Shown here: positions 47,394 through 53,761 of the stretch, piece by piece
Numbering within the stretch: the first letter of the stretch is position 1
Layout of the letters: each line of letters opens with the position of its first letter
DNA from: Nitrospirota bacterium
GTDB lineage: Bacteria > Nitrospirota > Nitrospiria > Nitrospirales > Nitrospiraceae
Length of the DNA: 64,000 bases
Reading direction: 5' to 3'
Assembly: GCA_026387665.1 (NCBI GenBank)
Contig: JAPLLG010000007.1
Location: 1 to 64,000 of the forward strand
Position numbers and translations under genes: made by a program
Notes under the pieces: generated by a model
Databases searched by the model: none
The model's input: only the letters and a program-made list of their open reading frames with translations
What the model was told of the DNA's origin: nothing

Positions 47394-47422
47394 TTGACAA
47401 CTATTCGACCAATCGATACCTT
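47394..47422 (+). promoter_or_regulatory. Candidate promoter of the RiPP cluster
   Basis: A perfect TTGACA (47394-47399), a 17-nt spacer and a weaker TACCTT (47417-47422), 82 nt before the ATG at 47505. It faces away from the promoter of the small exported protein. Confidence 0.45.
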
Positions 47423-47504
47423 GACCACAGCGACGTGTCACGACTCTTCTGTCCTTAGAGACAGATATCCAGCCCCCTCGGCAGTCAGACAAAGGCACCG
47501 GCCC

Positions 47505-47789
47505 ATGAATATCCGCATCCCTAGCGATGTCGTCTTTCGAGATCTGTCAGGCGAGGGAGTCTTATTGAACCTGGCCACCGGCACCTACTTCGGGCTCGAT
47601 GAGGTCGGCACGAAATGCTGGCACCTGATCGGCTCACAGGGAACGTTGGAGAACATCGTCACGGCCCTGTTGCCCGAGTATGAGGTTGACGAACCGCGAC
47701 TCCGAAGCGATCTCACACGGCTCCTCCAGCAACTGACCGACAAAGGACTCGTCGTAATTGATCAGACAGAAACTCCAGCGGCTCACTGA
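47505..47789 (+). CDS. PqqD-like RiPP recognition protein (lasso B1/RRE)
   Basis: 94 residues. VVFRDLSGEGVLLNLATGTY and CWHLIGSQGTLENIVTALLP follow the PqqD pattern, a winged-helix fold that binds the leader of a ribosomal peptide precursor. As the first gene of a cluster with a B2 protease, a cyclase and a precursor it should act as the stand-alone recognition element (B1 or E). The ATG at 47505 has AAAGG upstream. The downstream B2 gene starts inside its last codons. Confidence 0.9.
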   Translation: MNIRIPSDVVFRDLSGEGVLLNLATGTYFGLDEVGTKCWHLIGSQGTLENIVTALLPEYEVDEPRLRSDLTRLLQQLTDKGLVVIDQTETPAAH

Positions 47790-48201
47790 CCTTTCGCTCA
47801 GAGACTGGCTCTGGCTTCCACCGCTCGTCTTGTCGGCCCTCGCGATCGCCATGGCAGTCAAGCTCGCCCCGCTCCCTGACATTATCCGATTCCTCGACCG
47901 ATCAGCCCGCCACCCTTGGATCGCCTTCCTGCAAATTGGCAATCGACTGCACGATCTGGACGAACTCGTCCGCCTGACCGGATTAGCTGCCAGGGTCGTC
48001 CAGGGGCCCGGTTGCTGCCTCAGCCGATCGCTGCTGCGTTTCTGGTTGCTCCGCGCCAGGCAAGAACCGGCCGAGTTGCTGATCGGCGTCGCAAAGAATG
48101 GAGACTTGCTTCAGAGTCATGCCTGGATCGAACAGCAAGGACTCGCCATCGATGCAGGTCACGAGCTGAACCGAACCTTCGTGCCTGTACTCCGGTTCTG
48201 A
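47758..48201 (+). CDS. Lasso peptide biosynthesis B2 protease (transglutaminase-like)
   Basis: 147 residues. GPGCCLSRSLLRFWLLRARQ (Cys87 the probable nucleophile), LQSHAWIEQQG (His121) and IDAGH (Asp132) give the Cys-His-Asp triad of the B2 family, which cuts the leader from the precursor. A hydrophobic N-terminus (16-36) suits membrane contact. The start is a TTG at 47758 with AAAGGA upstream; it overlaps the PqqD-like gene by 32 nt, an unusually large overlap. Confidence 0.92.
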   Translation: MIRQKLQRLTDLSLRDWLWLPPLVLSALAIAMAVKLAPLPDIIRFLDRSARHPWIAFLQIGNRLHDLDELVRLTGLAARVVQGPGCCLSRSLLRFWLLRARQEPAELLIGVAKNGDLLQSHAWIEQQGLAIDAGHELNRTFVPVLRF

Positions 48202-48208
48202 GGACTCT

Positions 48209-50143
48209 ATGAGCGGCATCGTCGGCAGCTACAATCTGAATGGCAAACCGGCAGAGCCTCTCGTGATCAGACGCATGACGAACCGCCTCGCGCACCGTGG
48301 ACCGGACGGGCTGACCTGTTGGCTTGACGGGCCGGTCAGCTTGGGCCATGCCATGCTTCAGACCACCCCTGAATCGCTCTTCGAACGGCAGCCTCTCTGT
48401 GAGGGCGCCCTCTGCCTCACGCTGGATGGCCGGATCGACAACCGGGACGAACTACGAACAGCTCTTGAGTCTCATGGCGCAACCATGCGTAGCGACACCG
48501 ATGCCGAACTGGTGCTGCGTGCCTACCAATGTTGGGGAAACGATTGCCCGATCCATCTCCTGGGCGACTTTGCCTTCGCCATCTGGGACGCCACCAAACA
48601 CGAACTCTTCTGTGCTAGAGATCAGATGGGAATCAGACCCTTCTATTATTTCGCCAATGACCGGACCTTCCTCTTCGCCTCTGAGCTCCGCCCCCTGCTC
48701 GACCATGCCGAGGTCCAACCTGAGCTGAACGAAGGCATGATCGGAGAATACCTGGCCTGCCAGATCACCAGCCAGGAAGAAACCCTCTACCGCCATCTCT
48801 TGCGCCTTCCGCCCGGTCATTGCCTCACCGTGAGTCCTGGCCGGTTCCGGGTGACCAGATACTGGGACTTCGATTCCTCCAAAGAGCTCCATTATGGAAA
48901 CGACGAAGCCTATCGCGATCATTTTCTGGCCCTCTTAACGGAATCGGTCCGCTGCCGTCTGCGGAGCCACAAGTCTGTCGGCTGTTACCTGAGCGGAGGG
49001 CTCGACTCCTCCTCGGTCGTCTGCCTCGCAGCCTCTCTCAAGAAAAACGGACTGGCCACTCAGGGCCTGGAAACATTCTCTCTGCTCTTTCCAGGACTGG
49101 CCTGCGATGAAAGCCCCTATATCCAGGACATAGTCCAACAGTGGGATATCCCCTCGAACACGATCTGCCTGGAAGCAGAACCGGAGGCATCATTTGTTGA
49201 ATGCGCCAAGCGAGACCGCGACTTTCCCGGTTATCCGAATGGAACTATGGGGAACCCCTTGAGAGCCCTCGCCAGGGATCGCGGGGTTCGGGTGCTCCTG
49301 ACCGGAACAGGCGGAGACGAATGGCTGACCGGCAGCTATCTCGGAGCAGGAGACCTCCTTCGCCAAGGAAAGCTTCAAACTTTACATCGCCGGCTCCGGA
49401 ATGACTTTGGCGCAACAGGCTTTCTCGACACCTTCGACATGGCCCTGCGCTATGGCCTCTGGCCACTGTTTCCTCAAGCCATGCGCCAAATCATCAGGCA
49501 GGGACTGGGACGTCATGGACTTCTCTCCTGGCTCAACCCAGATTTTGCCAGAAGGATTCATTTGCGCGACCGGATCCAACTGGAGCCGGACCGGAGTTCC
49601 TGCGCGAGCCTGGCGCAAGCAGACATTGCCCTGACCCTCAAGAGCGGCTGGTGGCCCCATATGTTCGAAATCGAAGACCGTGCGGCCTCCTGGTTCGCAC
49701 TGGAAGAACGGCATCCCTTTGCGGACCGTCGGCTCGCCGAATTTGCCGTATCGTTGCCGGAAGACCAACGTTGGCGAGGCCAGCAAACCAAATATCTCCT
49801 CCGCCAGGCGATGCGAGGCATCCTCCCAGAAACCGTGCGACAACGAACGACTAAGGCGGAATTCTCCACCGTCTTCCTCCAGGCTTTGCGCACCCTTGGA
49901 GGCAGCCATTTCTTCGACTCGTTACAGATCACGGCCATGGGCTGGGTCGATGCAGACAAGATTCGGCAGGCCTATTCCAACATAGAAGCCGGGGCAACCA
50001 ATAATCCTGACTCAGCCCCATCCGGCCTCTGGTCTCTCTGGATGGTCATCGGAATCGAACTGTGGCTTAGACATATGGCAGACCGCGACCGTTCATCGGA
50101 AGAGACAGCTCTTCACTGGAAGCCTGCAGCCCAATTGGCGTAA
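48209..50143 (+). CDS. Asparagine-synthase-like lasso cyclase (C protein)
   Basis: 644 residues. The glutaminase-like N-domain starts MSGIVGSYNL: Cys2 is replaced by Ser, so it cannot hydrolyse glutamine, as in many lasso cyclases. RLAHRGPDGLTCW follows. The synthetase domain has GCYLSGGLDSSSVVCLA (near 257-273), the ATP site that adenylates a side-chain carboxylate of the core, and LLTGTGGDEWLTGSY. It would form the isopeptide ring. The gene follows the B2 gene by 7 nt with GAGGA upstream, and the precursor gene comes 36 nt later. Confidence 0.93.
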   Translation: MSGIVGSYNLNGKPAEPLVIRRMTNRLAHRGPDGLTCWLDGPVSLGHAMLQTTPESLFERQPLCEGALCLTLDGRIDNRDELRTALESHGATMRSDTDAELVLRAYQCWGNDCPIHLLGDFAFAIWDATKHELFCARDQMGIRPFYYFANDRTFLFASELRPLLDHAEVQPELNEGMIGEYLACQITSQEETLYRHLLRLPPGHCLTVSPGRFRVTRYWDFDSSKELHYGNDEAYRDHFLALLTESVRCRLRSHKSVGCYLSGGLDSSSVVCLAASLKKNGLATQGLETFSLLFPGLACDESPYIQDIVQQWDIPSNTICLEAEPEASFVECAKRDRDFPGYPNGTMGNPLRALARDRGVRVLLTGTGGDEWLTGSYLGAGDLLRQGKLQTLHRRLRNDFGATGFLDTFDMALRYGLWPLFPQAMRQIIRQGLGRHGLLSWLNPDFARRIHLRDRIQLEPDRSSCASLAQADIALTLKSGWWPHMFEIEDRAASWFALEERHPFADRRLAEFAVSLPEDQRWRGQQTKYLLRQAMRGILPETVRQRTTKAEFSTVFLQALRTLGGSHFFDSLQITAMGWVDADKIRQAYSNIEAGATNNPDSAPSGLWSLWMVIGIELWLRHMADRDRSSEETALHWKPAAQLA

Positions 50144-50179: not shown

Positions 50180-50338
50180 ATGGCTCAAGAACCAGTCCCG
50201 ACCGACAAGAAAAAACCCTATCGCTCCCCCACCCTGACAGAATACGGAAACGTGGCCAAGCTCACGGAAGAGAAGGAGGGATCAAAAGCGGACGGAAGGT
50301 CTGGCATGCTCATGTTCACACAGAAGCAGGATAAATGA
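50180..50338 (+). CDS. Lasso-type RiPP precursor peptide
   Basis: A 52-residue ORF with a strong AAAGGAGG site. The leader fits the lasso consensus YxxPxLxxxGxxxxxT exactly: Tyr14, Pro17, Leu19, Gly23, Thr29, as in KPYRSPTLTEYGNVAKLT. If Thr29 is at -2, as usual, the core begins at Glu31 and runs EKEGSKADGRSGMLMF onward to Lys52. Asp38 would be core residue 8, the normal isopeptide acceptor position. Glu at position 1 is atypical (Gly is usual). Core Arg40, Ser35, Ser41 and Thr47 could be targets of the methyltransferase and kinase encoded next. The product is a RiPP, but a true lasso fold is not proven. Confidence 0.88.
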   Translation: MAQEPVPTDKKKPYRSPTLTEYGNVAKLTEEKEGSKADGRSGMLMFTQKQDK

Positions 50339-50371: not shown

Positions 50372-51514
50372 TTGTCGCTCATCCTGGATGAACACCGCCA
50401 GTACCTCTCCGATCTGGCTCGCCTAGCCGCCTTTCGTGCTGCCATTCAGGAAGTCATCAAGCCTGGCGACGTCGTCGTGGACCTTGGTGCAGGAACCGGC
50501 ATTCTAGGCCTGCTCGCCTGCCGAGCCGGCGCTGCACGCGTCTACTCGATCGAGAGCACCGGCCTGATCCAGCTCACCAGAGACATCTGCGCAGCCAATG
50601 GATGCAGCGATCGAACCCAGTTCATCAACGAGCTGTCCGCCCAAGCCTCGCCCCCGGAACTGGCGGATGTCGTCGTCGCCGACCAGATCGGCTGTTTCGG
50701 TTTCGAAGCAGGTCTCTTTGAATATTTCCGTGATGCGCGAACTCGATTTCTCAAGCCAGGCGGAATCACGATTCCTTCGCGAATCGACCTAGTCGTCGCA
50801 CCGATCGACGCGCAACAGCTGCGAGACCAGGTCGAGTTCTGGAATACGGCCCCAGCAGAATTCGACTTTCGTCCGGTCAGAGCCCTCGCGGTCAATAGCA
50901 GCTACCCGGCCACCTTCACCCCTGACCAACTCCTAGGTGACCCGGCGATCCTGGCTTCCCTCGCCGCCTCCAATGCGCCCCCGTCCTTCCTGGGTCTGAC
51001 GGCGACTGCGACGGTCTCCCGACCTGGGACTCTTCATGGAATTGGTGGATGGTTTTCAGCAACTTTGTCTCCATCGATCACGCTGACCAACTCGCCCCTG
51101 AGCGAAAACAGGATCGATCGCCAGAACATGTTTTTCCCCATCGACCAGCCGGTCCCTGTCGTCCTCGGTGACCGCATCCTCATCACCATGAACATCCTGC
51201 CGACTGACATGGTGATCACCTGGAACGTGGCTGTACTGGGAGCCACCGGAGACGTCATCAAGGCCAGCTTCTCCCATTCGACCTTCCACGGCATGCTCCT
51301 ATCGAAGGAATCGTTACAGAAAGCCAAGCCTGATTTCGTCCCGATCCTCACCCCCAGGGGCGACGCCAGACGAACAGTCCTGGAACTCTGTAATGGCAAG
51401 AGCACTCTCGCGGAAATCGAGCGCGAAACCTACCGGCGCCATTCAACACTGTTCCGCAGCCTCGATGAAGCAGCGAAATTCGTTACCGAAGTCACGACCC
51501 GCAATACCCTATGA
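50372..51514 (+). CDS. PRMT-like methyltransferase fused to a PqqD-like domain
   Basis: 380 residues. The N-terminus (DEHRQYLSDLARLAAFRAAI) and motif I VVDLGAGTGILGLLA (residues 35-49), Glu61, and ADQIGCFGFEAG (Asp104, Glu112, in the place of the double-E loop) resemble protein arginine methyltransferases; the first catalytic Glu appears as Asp. A beta-barrel region follows. Residues about 322-376 (RRTVLELCNGKSTLAEIERE) look like a PqqD/RRE leader-binding domain. So the enzyme could bind the precursor leader and methylate the core, with Arg40 the simplest target. The start is a TTG at 50372 with GAGG 7 nt upstream. Confidence 0.82.
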   Translation: MSLILDEHRQYLSDLARLAAFRAAIQEVIKPGDVVVDLGAGTGILGLLACRAGAARVYSIESTGLIQLTRDICAANGCSDRTQFINELSAQASPPELADVVVADQIGCFGFEAGLFEYFRDARTRFLKPGGITIPSRIDLVVAPIDAQQLRDQVEFWNTAPAEFDFRPVRALAVNSSYPATFTPDQLLGDPAILASLAASNAPPSFLGLTATATVSRPGTLHGIGGWFSATLSPSITLTNSPLSENRIDRQNMFFPIDQPVPVVLGDRILITMNILPTDMVITWNVAVLGATGDVIKASFSHSTFHGMLLSKESLQKAKPDFVPILTPRGDARRTVLELCNGKSTLAEIERETYRRHSTLFRSLDEAAKFVTEVTTRNTL

Positions 51515-52539
51515 CCCTCTCGCTGGATCGGCCATCCCAACTCCTCTGCTACCAAGTCAGCGGCATCACCCTGGGCAGCGACGTACCGCTCTTGGAGCTG
51601 GCTCCCACTGAAGGTCTAAACCCTGCCGATGGCTGGGACATCCGCGTCCGTTTTCTTCCTGAGTCGACTCAGTCCCTCTGCCCCTCCTCCTGGTTCCTCA
51701 CCATGGCATTGCCGGGCGAGGAGCCTTGGTTATCTTGCGCAGACATCGAAGAGCAGGCCCTGCTCGGAGGCAAGCCAGGCTATCTTCTCCGCTTGCATGA
51801 CCTAGCAGATTTCCTGGTGGACCGGCAGGGAACGGATGTCGTCGCGCTGGCCAGCCACGAGACGCCGCCGGAGACGCTGCATCACATCCTCTTAAACCAA
51901 GTGCTCCCATTGGTGCTCAATCTACGAGGACAGGATGCACTCCATGCCACAGCCGTGCTGACGCCTCAAGGCATCTGCGCCTTCGCCGGACCGGCCGGCG
52001 TCGGCAAGTCCACGCTGGCCGCCAGCTTCCTGCTCGCTGGCTATCCGGTGATCAGCGACGATTGTCTCGTGCTCAAGGAACAGGAGGGCAGGATCGTCGC
52101 AGTGCCAGGCTATCCAGGGCTCCGGCTCTGGGACGATGTCGCCCAAAGTCTCTCTCTCGATCCAGGCCACCTCAGCTCAGTGGCCCATTACACAGCAAAG
52201 CATCGTTTGCTTCTCCCAAACCAAAGCCAGGCCTTTCCAACTGAGCCACTCCCACTCACTCGGCTCTACATCCTCTCGCCACCCGAAGCCCCTGAAGCTC
52301 GCAACAAGGCAGCAGCGATCAGTCTCCGGCCATTCCAGCCGCGCCACGCCTTCATGGAACTCCTCTCCTGCCTCTTCCGACTGGACATCAGAGACAAAAC
52401 GATGCTGGCCAGGCAGTTCTGCTTTATCGAACGGCTCGTGGACCAAGTTCCCGTCAAACAATTATCGATCCCTCAGACCGTCTCGGCCCTGCCAGCGGTC
52501 CGTGATGCAATCCTGGCCGATCTGCTCCATGAAATCTGA
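51511..52539 (+). CDS. HPr-kinase-like lasso peptide kinase
   Basis: 342 residues. GPAGVGKSTLA (160-170) is the P-loop, HATAV lies just before it, and VISDDCLVL with Asp183/Asp184 matches the HPr kinase catalytic region. Homologues in lasso clusters phosphorylate a C-terminal Ser of the precursor; here the precursor ends in Lys, so another Ser/Thr or a different substrate is implied. It overlaps the methyltransferase by 4 nt and the next gene by 11 nt. Confidence 0.88.
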   Translation: MTLSLDRPSQLLCYQVSGITLGSDVPLLELAPTEGLNPADGWDIRVRFLPESTQSLCPSSWFLTMALPGEEPWLSCADIEEQALLGGKPGYLLRLHDLADFLVDRQGTDVVALASHETPPETLHHILLNQVLPLVLNLRGQDALHATAVLTPQGICAFAGPAGVGKSTLAASFLLAGYPVISDDCLVLKEQEGRIVAVPGYPGLRLWDDVAQSLSLDPGHLSSVAHYTAKHRLLLPNQSQAFPTEPLPLTRLYILSPPEAPEARNKAAAISLRPFQPRHAFMELLSCLFRLDIRDKTMLARQFCFIERLVDQVPVKQLSIPQTVSALPAVRDAILADLLHEI

Positions 52540-53761
52540 CCAGCAAGACAGGCTCTGCTTCCCCTTGAGCCATAAAGACGAAGTACTCCTCTGCCTGGCC
52601 CATCCGAAGCTGAGCACGAAACGGAGCCAACGATTAGCCAACCTCCTGGTTTCCCCCACGGACTGGGCGGAACTCCTCGACCAGGCAGACCGGCATGGGA
52701 TCACACCTCTGCTCCATCATCACCTGAAGCAGGCTCCCGCTCTCACGATTCCCGAGACAACAAGAACGACATTGGCCGAGAGATCCCGTTCCTGCCTGGC
52801 CTGGAATCTCCGCCTCAGTCACGAACTGCTCTATCTCTTAGACCGATTCAACGAGGCAGGCATTCCCGTCATGCCCTTGAAAGGCCTCTACCTGGCCGAT
52901 CTCCTCTACAAAGACTCCGCCCTGCGCCCGACGTCGGATCTCGATCTCCTGGTGAAGGTCCAAGATTTTGAGGCAAGCCAGCAGATCCTCGAAGAAGCAG
53001 GCTGCACGAAACTGGCGGATGAGGAGCAAGGAGCGGAATACCACGTCTCCTATGTCACGACCAATGAACGAGCGGGACACGTGCTGATCGAATTACATAG
53101 GGCCCTGGGGGAAAGTCATGTGGCAGGACTCGACATCGAAGCGGTCTGGCGCTCGGCTACTCCGATCATCTGGGAAGGACGGACGATCTGGACAATGGCC
53201 ATCCCGGACCTCTTCCTCTACACCTGCCTCCATGCCGTAAAGGATGGGCTGGCCTCGATACGATCCTTACTCGACATCACTTTGTTGCTGGAGCGCTATG
53301 GCCAGAACTTGCCCTGGCAGGAACTGACACAACGAGTGAAACAAGCGAGGATCGAGACCCCCGTCTCTCTCAGCCTTCTCTTGAGCCGTGAGCTGTTGGA
53401 AGCCTCTCTCCCCTCAGAATTTCTGGCAGCCATCCGGCCCTCGCGAAACCTGAGCCGGCTCCTCGGCCAGGCGCTCTTCAGATGGAGAGGCGGAGTCCTG
53501 CATGTGCCGCAAGAATTGCTCGTGGGACCCTTCATGGCCCTGCTGATGTTGTGCTGGGAGGACTCGCTCAAAGGAAAACGGCGGCACCTACGTCGCAACC
53601 TACTGCCCTCAGAGAAGCTGCAAGGCCGCTGGATATCGCAAACGCACACCTCGACACCATTCCGTCGCTACCAGGCCTGGCTCTGGGAAATCTGCCTTCG
53701 TCTCACCAGTCAACTGACTGCCCGCTCCCATTCCAGACAGCCAGGCGCTCCGCGCCATTAA
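52529..53761 (+). CDS. Nucleotidyltransferase-family protein of the RiPP cluster
   Basis: 410 residues. LRPTSDLDLLV (Asp137, Asp139) and the preceding PLKGLYLADLLY form the metal-binding site of the Nucleotidyltransf_5-like family, often found beside HPr-kinase-like lasso kinases. The middle and C-terminal regions are helical. It may add a nucleotide or sugar-phosphate group to the peptide; the chemistry is not established. It ends the cluster, 98 bases before tRNA-Arg. Confidence 0.87.
   Translation: MKSDQQDRLCFPLSHKDEVLLCLAHPKLSTKRSQRLANLLVSPTDWAELLDQADRHGITPLLHHHLKQAPALTIPETTRTTLAERSRSCLAWNLRLSHELLYLLDRFNEAGIPVMPLKGLYLADLLYKDSALRPTSDLDLLVKVQDFEASQQILEEAGCTKLADEEQGAEYHVSYVTTNERAGHVLIELHRALGESHVAGLDIEAVWRSATPIIWEGRTIWTMAIPDLFLYTCLHAVKDGLASIRSLLDITLLLERYGQNLPWQELTQRVKQARIETPVSLSLLLSRELLEASLPSEFLAAIRPSRNLSRLLGQALFRWRGGVLHVPQELLVGPFMALLMLCWEDSLKGKRRHLRRNLLPSEKLQGRWISQTHTSTPFRRYQAWLWEICLRLTSQLTARSHSRQPGAPRH

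Follow-up and report, generated by a model that had tools for sequence, protein, structure and literature searches.

Lasso peptides are tailored by several enzymes that act on the precursor, among them the C-terminal carboxyl methyltransferases StspM and LasF of lassomycin-like lasso peptides, the kinases PadeK and BsfK, and the nucleotidyltransferase PsmN. StspM methylates its carboxyl group on the linear precursor (PMC9266682), and BsfK modifies Ser3 (PMC10368454). Protein arginine methyltransferases (PRMTs) have a different pocket chemistry: in PRMT2 the guanidinium group lies between E223 and E232, the second Glu of this double-E loop following nine residues past the first, and helix X with its YFxxY motif and the THW loop complete the pocket (PMC8623767). 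The locus described here places a PRMT-fold gene directly within a lasso cluster, and no description of this family was found in the open-licence literature on lasso peptides with PRMT or Nitrospira.

The window, meaning the whole 64,000-nucleotide stretch of Nitrospirota DNA that was analysed, carries a lasso cluster in the order PqqD/B1, B2, cyclase, precursor, PRMT-like gene, HprK-like gene and NTP_transf_5 nucleotidyltransferase (Table 1). Its precursor has a YxxP leader with Thr at position -2 and is accompanied by B1, B2 and cyclase C. The PRMT-like open reading frame is real and conserved. It codes for 380 residues from a TTG start codon; the in-frame space 5' of this codon encodes just GRF, preceded by a stop, and orthologs begin at the same position with ATG, GTG or TTG.

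Table 1. Features of the lasso cluster, in window coordinates
Feature	Position	Strand	Support
B1, PqqD-type RiPP recognition element	47394..47789	+	Pfam PqqD 1.6e-17; lasso_PqqD_Bac 3e-15
B2, lasso leader peptidase	47758..48201	+	NCBIfam lasso_biosyn_B2 55.4 bits, cut-off 33
C, lasso macrolactam cyclase (asparagine synthetase-like)	48209..50143	+	NF033535 539 bits, cut-off 525
Lasso precursor, 52 aa	50180..50338	+	NCBIfam lasso_leader_L3 21.3 bits, cut-off 19; alignment with relatives
PRMT-fold methyltransferase with C-terminal helical domain	50372..51514	+	Pfam, PDB phmmer, AF2 model, fold searches
Former double-E loop DQIGCFGFEA, residues 104-113 (Asp104 in place of the first Glu, Ala113 in place of the canonical second)	50681..50710	+	
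Former THW loop, residues 248-250, IDR (Arg250 opposite Trp)	51113..51121	+	Alignment
C-terminal three-helix domain, residues 328-378	51353..51505	+	AF2 models, fold searches
HprK-like kinase	51511..52539	+	HprK_rel_A 2e-7, under its cut-off; synteny
NTP_transf_5 nucleotidyltransferase	52526..53761 (start approximate, frame open from 52136)	+	Pfam 2.6e-55; synteny

A first-pass annotation had read the N-terminal part of this protein as PRMT-like, and three lines of evidence bear this out. First, a phmmer search of PDB sequences gives PRMT2 (5fub) at 8.5e-25, with PRMT6 and others also aligned, over residues 7-277, and Pfam PRMT_C matches at 8.4e-9. Second, Foldseek of the AF2 model, which was built from 48 sequences (mean pLDDT 93.6, pTM 0.84), returns PRMTs exclusively among the matches listed. 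Third, VIA-align superposes the model on PRMT1 (1or8) with a Z score of 33.4, at 2.0 A over 298 residues. The protein is thus a Rossmann SAM domain followed by the PRMT beta-barrel, and its homology to PRMTs is far above chance level. The landmarks cited in that annotation (DEHRQYLSD, VDLGAGTGILG, Glu61, Asp104 and Glu112) are all present in the translation.

The substrate pocket is another matter. Forty lasso-clade enzymes were compared, by sequence alignment, with eight PRMT relatives from outside lasso clusters. The SAM motif residues D37, G41 and G43 are invariant across the aligned enzymes. The first double-E position, by contrast, is Asp104 in 40/40 lasso-clade enzymes and Glu in 8/8 others, and the canonical second position, 113, is Ala or Ser in 40/40 and Glu in seven of the eight others, so that two Glu nine residues apart are missing throughout the clade. 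The earlier proposal of Asp104 and Glu112 as the catalytic pair therefore stands for Asp104, which does occupy the first position, and falls for Glu112, both because the spacing assigns the second site to Ala113 and because position 112 varies between Glu, Asp and Asn within the clade. The Trp of the THW loop is replaced by Arg250 in all 40 and kept in 7/8 others, its His position is freely variable, and the window enzyme reads IDR here, although this loop carries a one-residue shift in the alignment and its placement is uncertain. The helix Y Met of PRMTs (7/8 others) is Tyr11 in 40/40, and the nearby Arg9 is likewise present in all 40. The YFxxY motif on helix X is absent, the protein beginning seven residues ahead of His8; the nearest bacterial relatives also have no clear YFxxY, so this absence extends beyond the lasso clade. 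With the SAM motif kept and the pocket residues replaced, lasso-clade enzymes should still bind SAM but should not grip a guanidinium group in the usual manner, and arginine is probably not their usual substrate.

A single degenerate-pattern scan of species genomes yielded forty loci, from Nitrospira, Acidobacteriota, Rokubacteria, Binatota, Myxococcota/Deltaproteobacteria, Burkholderiales and one Thermoleophilaceae MAG. Many of the loci lie on short MAG contigs, and faulty binning may have lengthened this list of phyla. Nearly all forty have a lasso precursor and an HprK-like gene nearby, and an HprK-like gene lies near the PRMT-like gene in nearly every locus of sufficient length. The order cyclase, precursor, PRMT, HprK-like and nucleotidyltransferase recurs in Nitrospira relatives (L031-L041). 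A Nitrospira lenta MAG carries an ortholog 88% identical to the window enzyme, and the enzymes of L031-L034 are 63-89% identical to it. In the tree, a branch with only moderate support (78/92) sets the lasso enzymes apart, and the window clade (the window and L031-L034) is sister to L035. At four loci (L199, L200, L057 and L064) the precursor-PRMT-HprK-nucleotidyltransferase block stands without B1, B2 or C nearby. In genomes G300 and G373 the B1/B2/cyclase set lies elsewhere (L170 and L174), with no precursor detected beside it. In two Nitrospira clusters the genes directly 3' of the nucleotidyltransferase encode an ECF sigma factor paired with an RskA-type anti-sigma factor (L061:11332-13064 and L062:11445-13069). 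A further locus, L047:4082-7813, brings together a nucleotidyltransferase, PqqD, an HprK-like gene and a distant PRMT-like gene, with a small ORF between the nucleotidyltransferase and PqqD; no lasso cyclase was detected there, and it is possibly a RiPP locus of another type.

Two Nitrospirota relatives provide the counterpart to the lasso enzymes. The PRMT-like proteins of L042 and L043 are 36% identical to the window enzyme over most of the length, C-terminal domain included, but unlike the lasso enzymes they keep both Glu and the HW of THW, and no lasso genes were found on their short contigs. Each adjoins a dimethylargininase-like gene (L042:4935-7221 and L043:1015-3040), which would be in line with Arg methylation by that branch. 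Judging from this neighbourhood, these may be the arginine-methylating members, and each may form with its neighbour a bacterial arginine-methylation/demethylation pair.

The predicted window core is EKEGSKADGRSGMLMFTQKQDK, following a leader that ends in KLTE, with Asp8 as the ring acid. The YxxP and Thr(-2) leader features are conserved across PRMT-associated precursors. Counted from Thr(-2), residue 1 of the window core (50270-50338) would be Glu, and it would be Lys or His in L031-L034; other relatives usually have Gly, Ser or Thr. None of Glu, Lys and His is usual as the first residue of a lasso ring. Among 44 distinct PRMT-associated cores, Ser or Thr occurs within positions 1-5 in every case, Asp or Glu at core 8 or 9 in 42/43, a C-terminal Cys-Leu in 34 and Met in 39, and each of the 44 contains Met or Cys. 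Most precursors of L036-L041 and L054-L090 end in Cys-Leu and are Met-rich, a C-terminal signature for which we know of no matching described lasso family. Eight sibling cores from PRMT-less loci served for comparison (L150, L151/L192, L152, L195, two in L196, L197 and L198, the last counted by eye after the scripted motif missed it). They include neither Cys-Leu (0/8; Fisher 5.8e-5) nor Met or Cys (0/8; 1.3e-9), values that ignore shared ancestry, by which the tail association is confounded, and that draw on just eight PRMT-less cores, two of them from one locus. Met, Cys, Asp and Arg are each missing from some PRMT-associated cores, and none can be a single universal target. A C-terminal Ser is absent in 43/44 and is set aside as the kinase target. 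L035, the sister of the window clade, has a core with Cys-Leu at its end, so the window lineage has probably lost Cys-Leu and kept the enzyme; Cys therefore cannot be the sole target.

The C-terminal domain was proposed in the first-pass annotation to be a PqqD-like fold of the protein's own, giving the cluster two leader-binding modules. The helical half of this proposal finds some support. In the AF2 models, residues 310-380 form mainly three helices (328-339, 346-356 and 364-378), and Foldseek ranks PqqD of Xanthomonas (3g2b) first of 350,542 PDB chains, although the match is weak (E 0.46, prob 0.85). VIA superposes the three helices on 3g2b with a Z score of 6.6, at 1.9 A over 49 residues; on the PqqD side only residues 38-86 are included, and a score of this size may reflect just a common helix arrangement. 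The other half is not: strictly, a RiPP recognition element (RRE) runs beta-beta-beta then alpha-alpha-alpha (PMC12710340), and this domain is modelled as helices with no sheet of its own, the preceding strands (281-289 and 296-303) belonging to the part that aligns with the PRMT barrel. Nor is there a sequence-level match to PqqD, whether by Pfam in a domain-level search, by hhalign against PqqD sequences from these clusters (0.2% probability with 9 of them, 1.0% with 51), or by a PDB profile search with the domain, which found nothing; the fold search alone pointed to PqqD, and a canonical RRE can be set aside. The domain also occurs in the non-lasso relatives L042/L043 and may thus predate recruitment to lasso clusters. 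Given this and the missing strands, a second leader-binding module is at most hypothetical. The domain may help to hold the precursor.

We infer activity, substrate and site from the fold, the synteny, the pocket replacement and the lack of Arg conservation. On these grounds the protein is probably a SAM-dependent methyltransferase of PRMT fold that modifies a group other than arginine and tailors the lasso precursor, a judgement that applies to this general statement and not to the site. A PRMT-fold enzyme would have been recruited to lasso clusters and re-tooled there. Its SAM-binding half (with VDLGAGTG and Glu61) and its PRMT barrel are kept, and the features of its guanidinium pocket have been replaced, with the double-E changed to Asp/Ala, THW to xxArg, and the YFxxY helix missing. 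Methylation would fall on the precursor, ahead of its maturation or in the course of it, and on the segment that follows the ring, most likely the tail. The groups common to the cores are the C-terminal carboxylate, the N-terminus, the ring acid and a Ser/Thr in positions 1-5. The macrolactam requires the ring acid, and the Ser/Thr is a fitting site for the kinase, which leaves the C-terminal carboxylate as the leading candidate; the acid would be held by the two invariant arginines, Arg9 and Arg250, and StspM offers a precedent. This is a tentative first guess and a weak preference, with a Met or Cys sulfur of the tail in second place.

Of the other readings, the one that survives best is that of a sulfur methyltransferase, which S-methylates the tail Cys of Cys-Leu or forms a Met sulfonium; both have RiPP precedents, in PtyS (Cys) and in longipeptin/LopH (Met) (PMC11285071, a review). 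It would account for the presence of Met or Cys in all PRMT-associated and no PRMT-less cores, an association stated above with ancestry ignored, and for the at least two Met that the window clade keeps without Cys. However, the position of Met varies, no single residue type fits both the five acidobacterial cores without Met and the window clade without Cys, and thioether methylation has no obvious need for invariant Arg residues. We consider it rather unlikely. It is less plausible still that the substrate is not the precursor but a partner protein or small molecule, or that the protein is an inactive scaffold aiding the kinase. The nearly constant closeness of the enzyme and the HprK-like gene is in keeping with such a role, but the SAM motif is conserved and the enzyme still adjoins the precursor at L199 and L200, where the core machinery is not close by. 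Methylation of a side-chain carboxyl group, either of the ring Asp/Glu or of an acid in the tail, which might for instance lead to aspartimide at the Asp-Gly common in these cores, has a precedent in the PIMT-like enzymes of lasso peptides (PMC9266682) and draws on the near-invariant acid at core 8 or 9. The conservation of this acid is already explained by its expected role as macrolactam acceptor, the enzyme has the PRMT fold and not that of PIMT, and several cores have Glu or no following Gly; this route is improbable. The weakest reading is the one first proposed, N-methylation by a true PRMT of Arg40 (core residue 10, in DGRSG), which does exist as the one Arg of the core and is matched by a PRMT fold with two acids, D104 and E112, still in its loop, but which is Lys in the four closest relatives (L031, L032, L033 and L034) and has no Arg equivalent anywhere in 29/44 cores, Arg being if anything more frequent in PRMT-less siblings (6/8 vs 15/44) and the Glu pair and THW being missing in 40/40, so that Arg40 is rejected as a conserved family target and its methylation in the window species alone is very unlikely.

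The preferred reading, a PRMT-fold enzyme that tailors the precursor at another group, would, if true, add a new methyltransferase class to lasso-peptide tailoring and provide a case of a PRMT fold re-tooled away from arginine, for which the canonical-pocket relative beside the dimethylargininase-like gene is a natural comparison. It would also mark an uncharacterised lasso-peptide family, mostly Cys-Leu-ending and Met-rich, in nitrite oxidisers and soil bacteria. In its wider form, that a lineage spread over several bacterial phyla has abandoned arginine and now methylates the C-terminal carboxylate or a tail sulfur of lasso peptides, the case for and against is evenly balanced. To our knowledge, neither methylation occurs in any PRMT-fold enzyme.

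With type I PRMTs (PRMT1, PRMT2 and PRMT6) the enzyme shares the whole fold, Rossmann domain and barrel, over residues 4-308, but it is without the double-E, THW and YFxxY motifs and adds a C-terminal three-helix domain. Like the clusters of PadeK, BsfK and PsmN, the window cluster has kinase (HprK-like) and NTP_transf_5 genes; PadeK substrates have a C-terminal Ser, unlike the precursors here, and the ring Ser/Thr would fit a BsfK-like site instead. With StspM and LasF the family would share its outcome, a tailoring methylation that acts on the precursor, but not its means: StspM does not have the PRMT fold, being modelled on mitomycin-7-O-methyltransferase with catalysis by His242 and Glu296 (PMC9266682).
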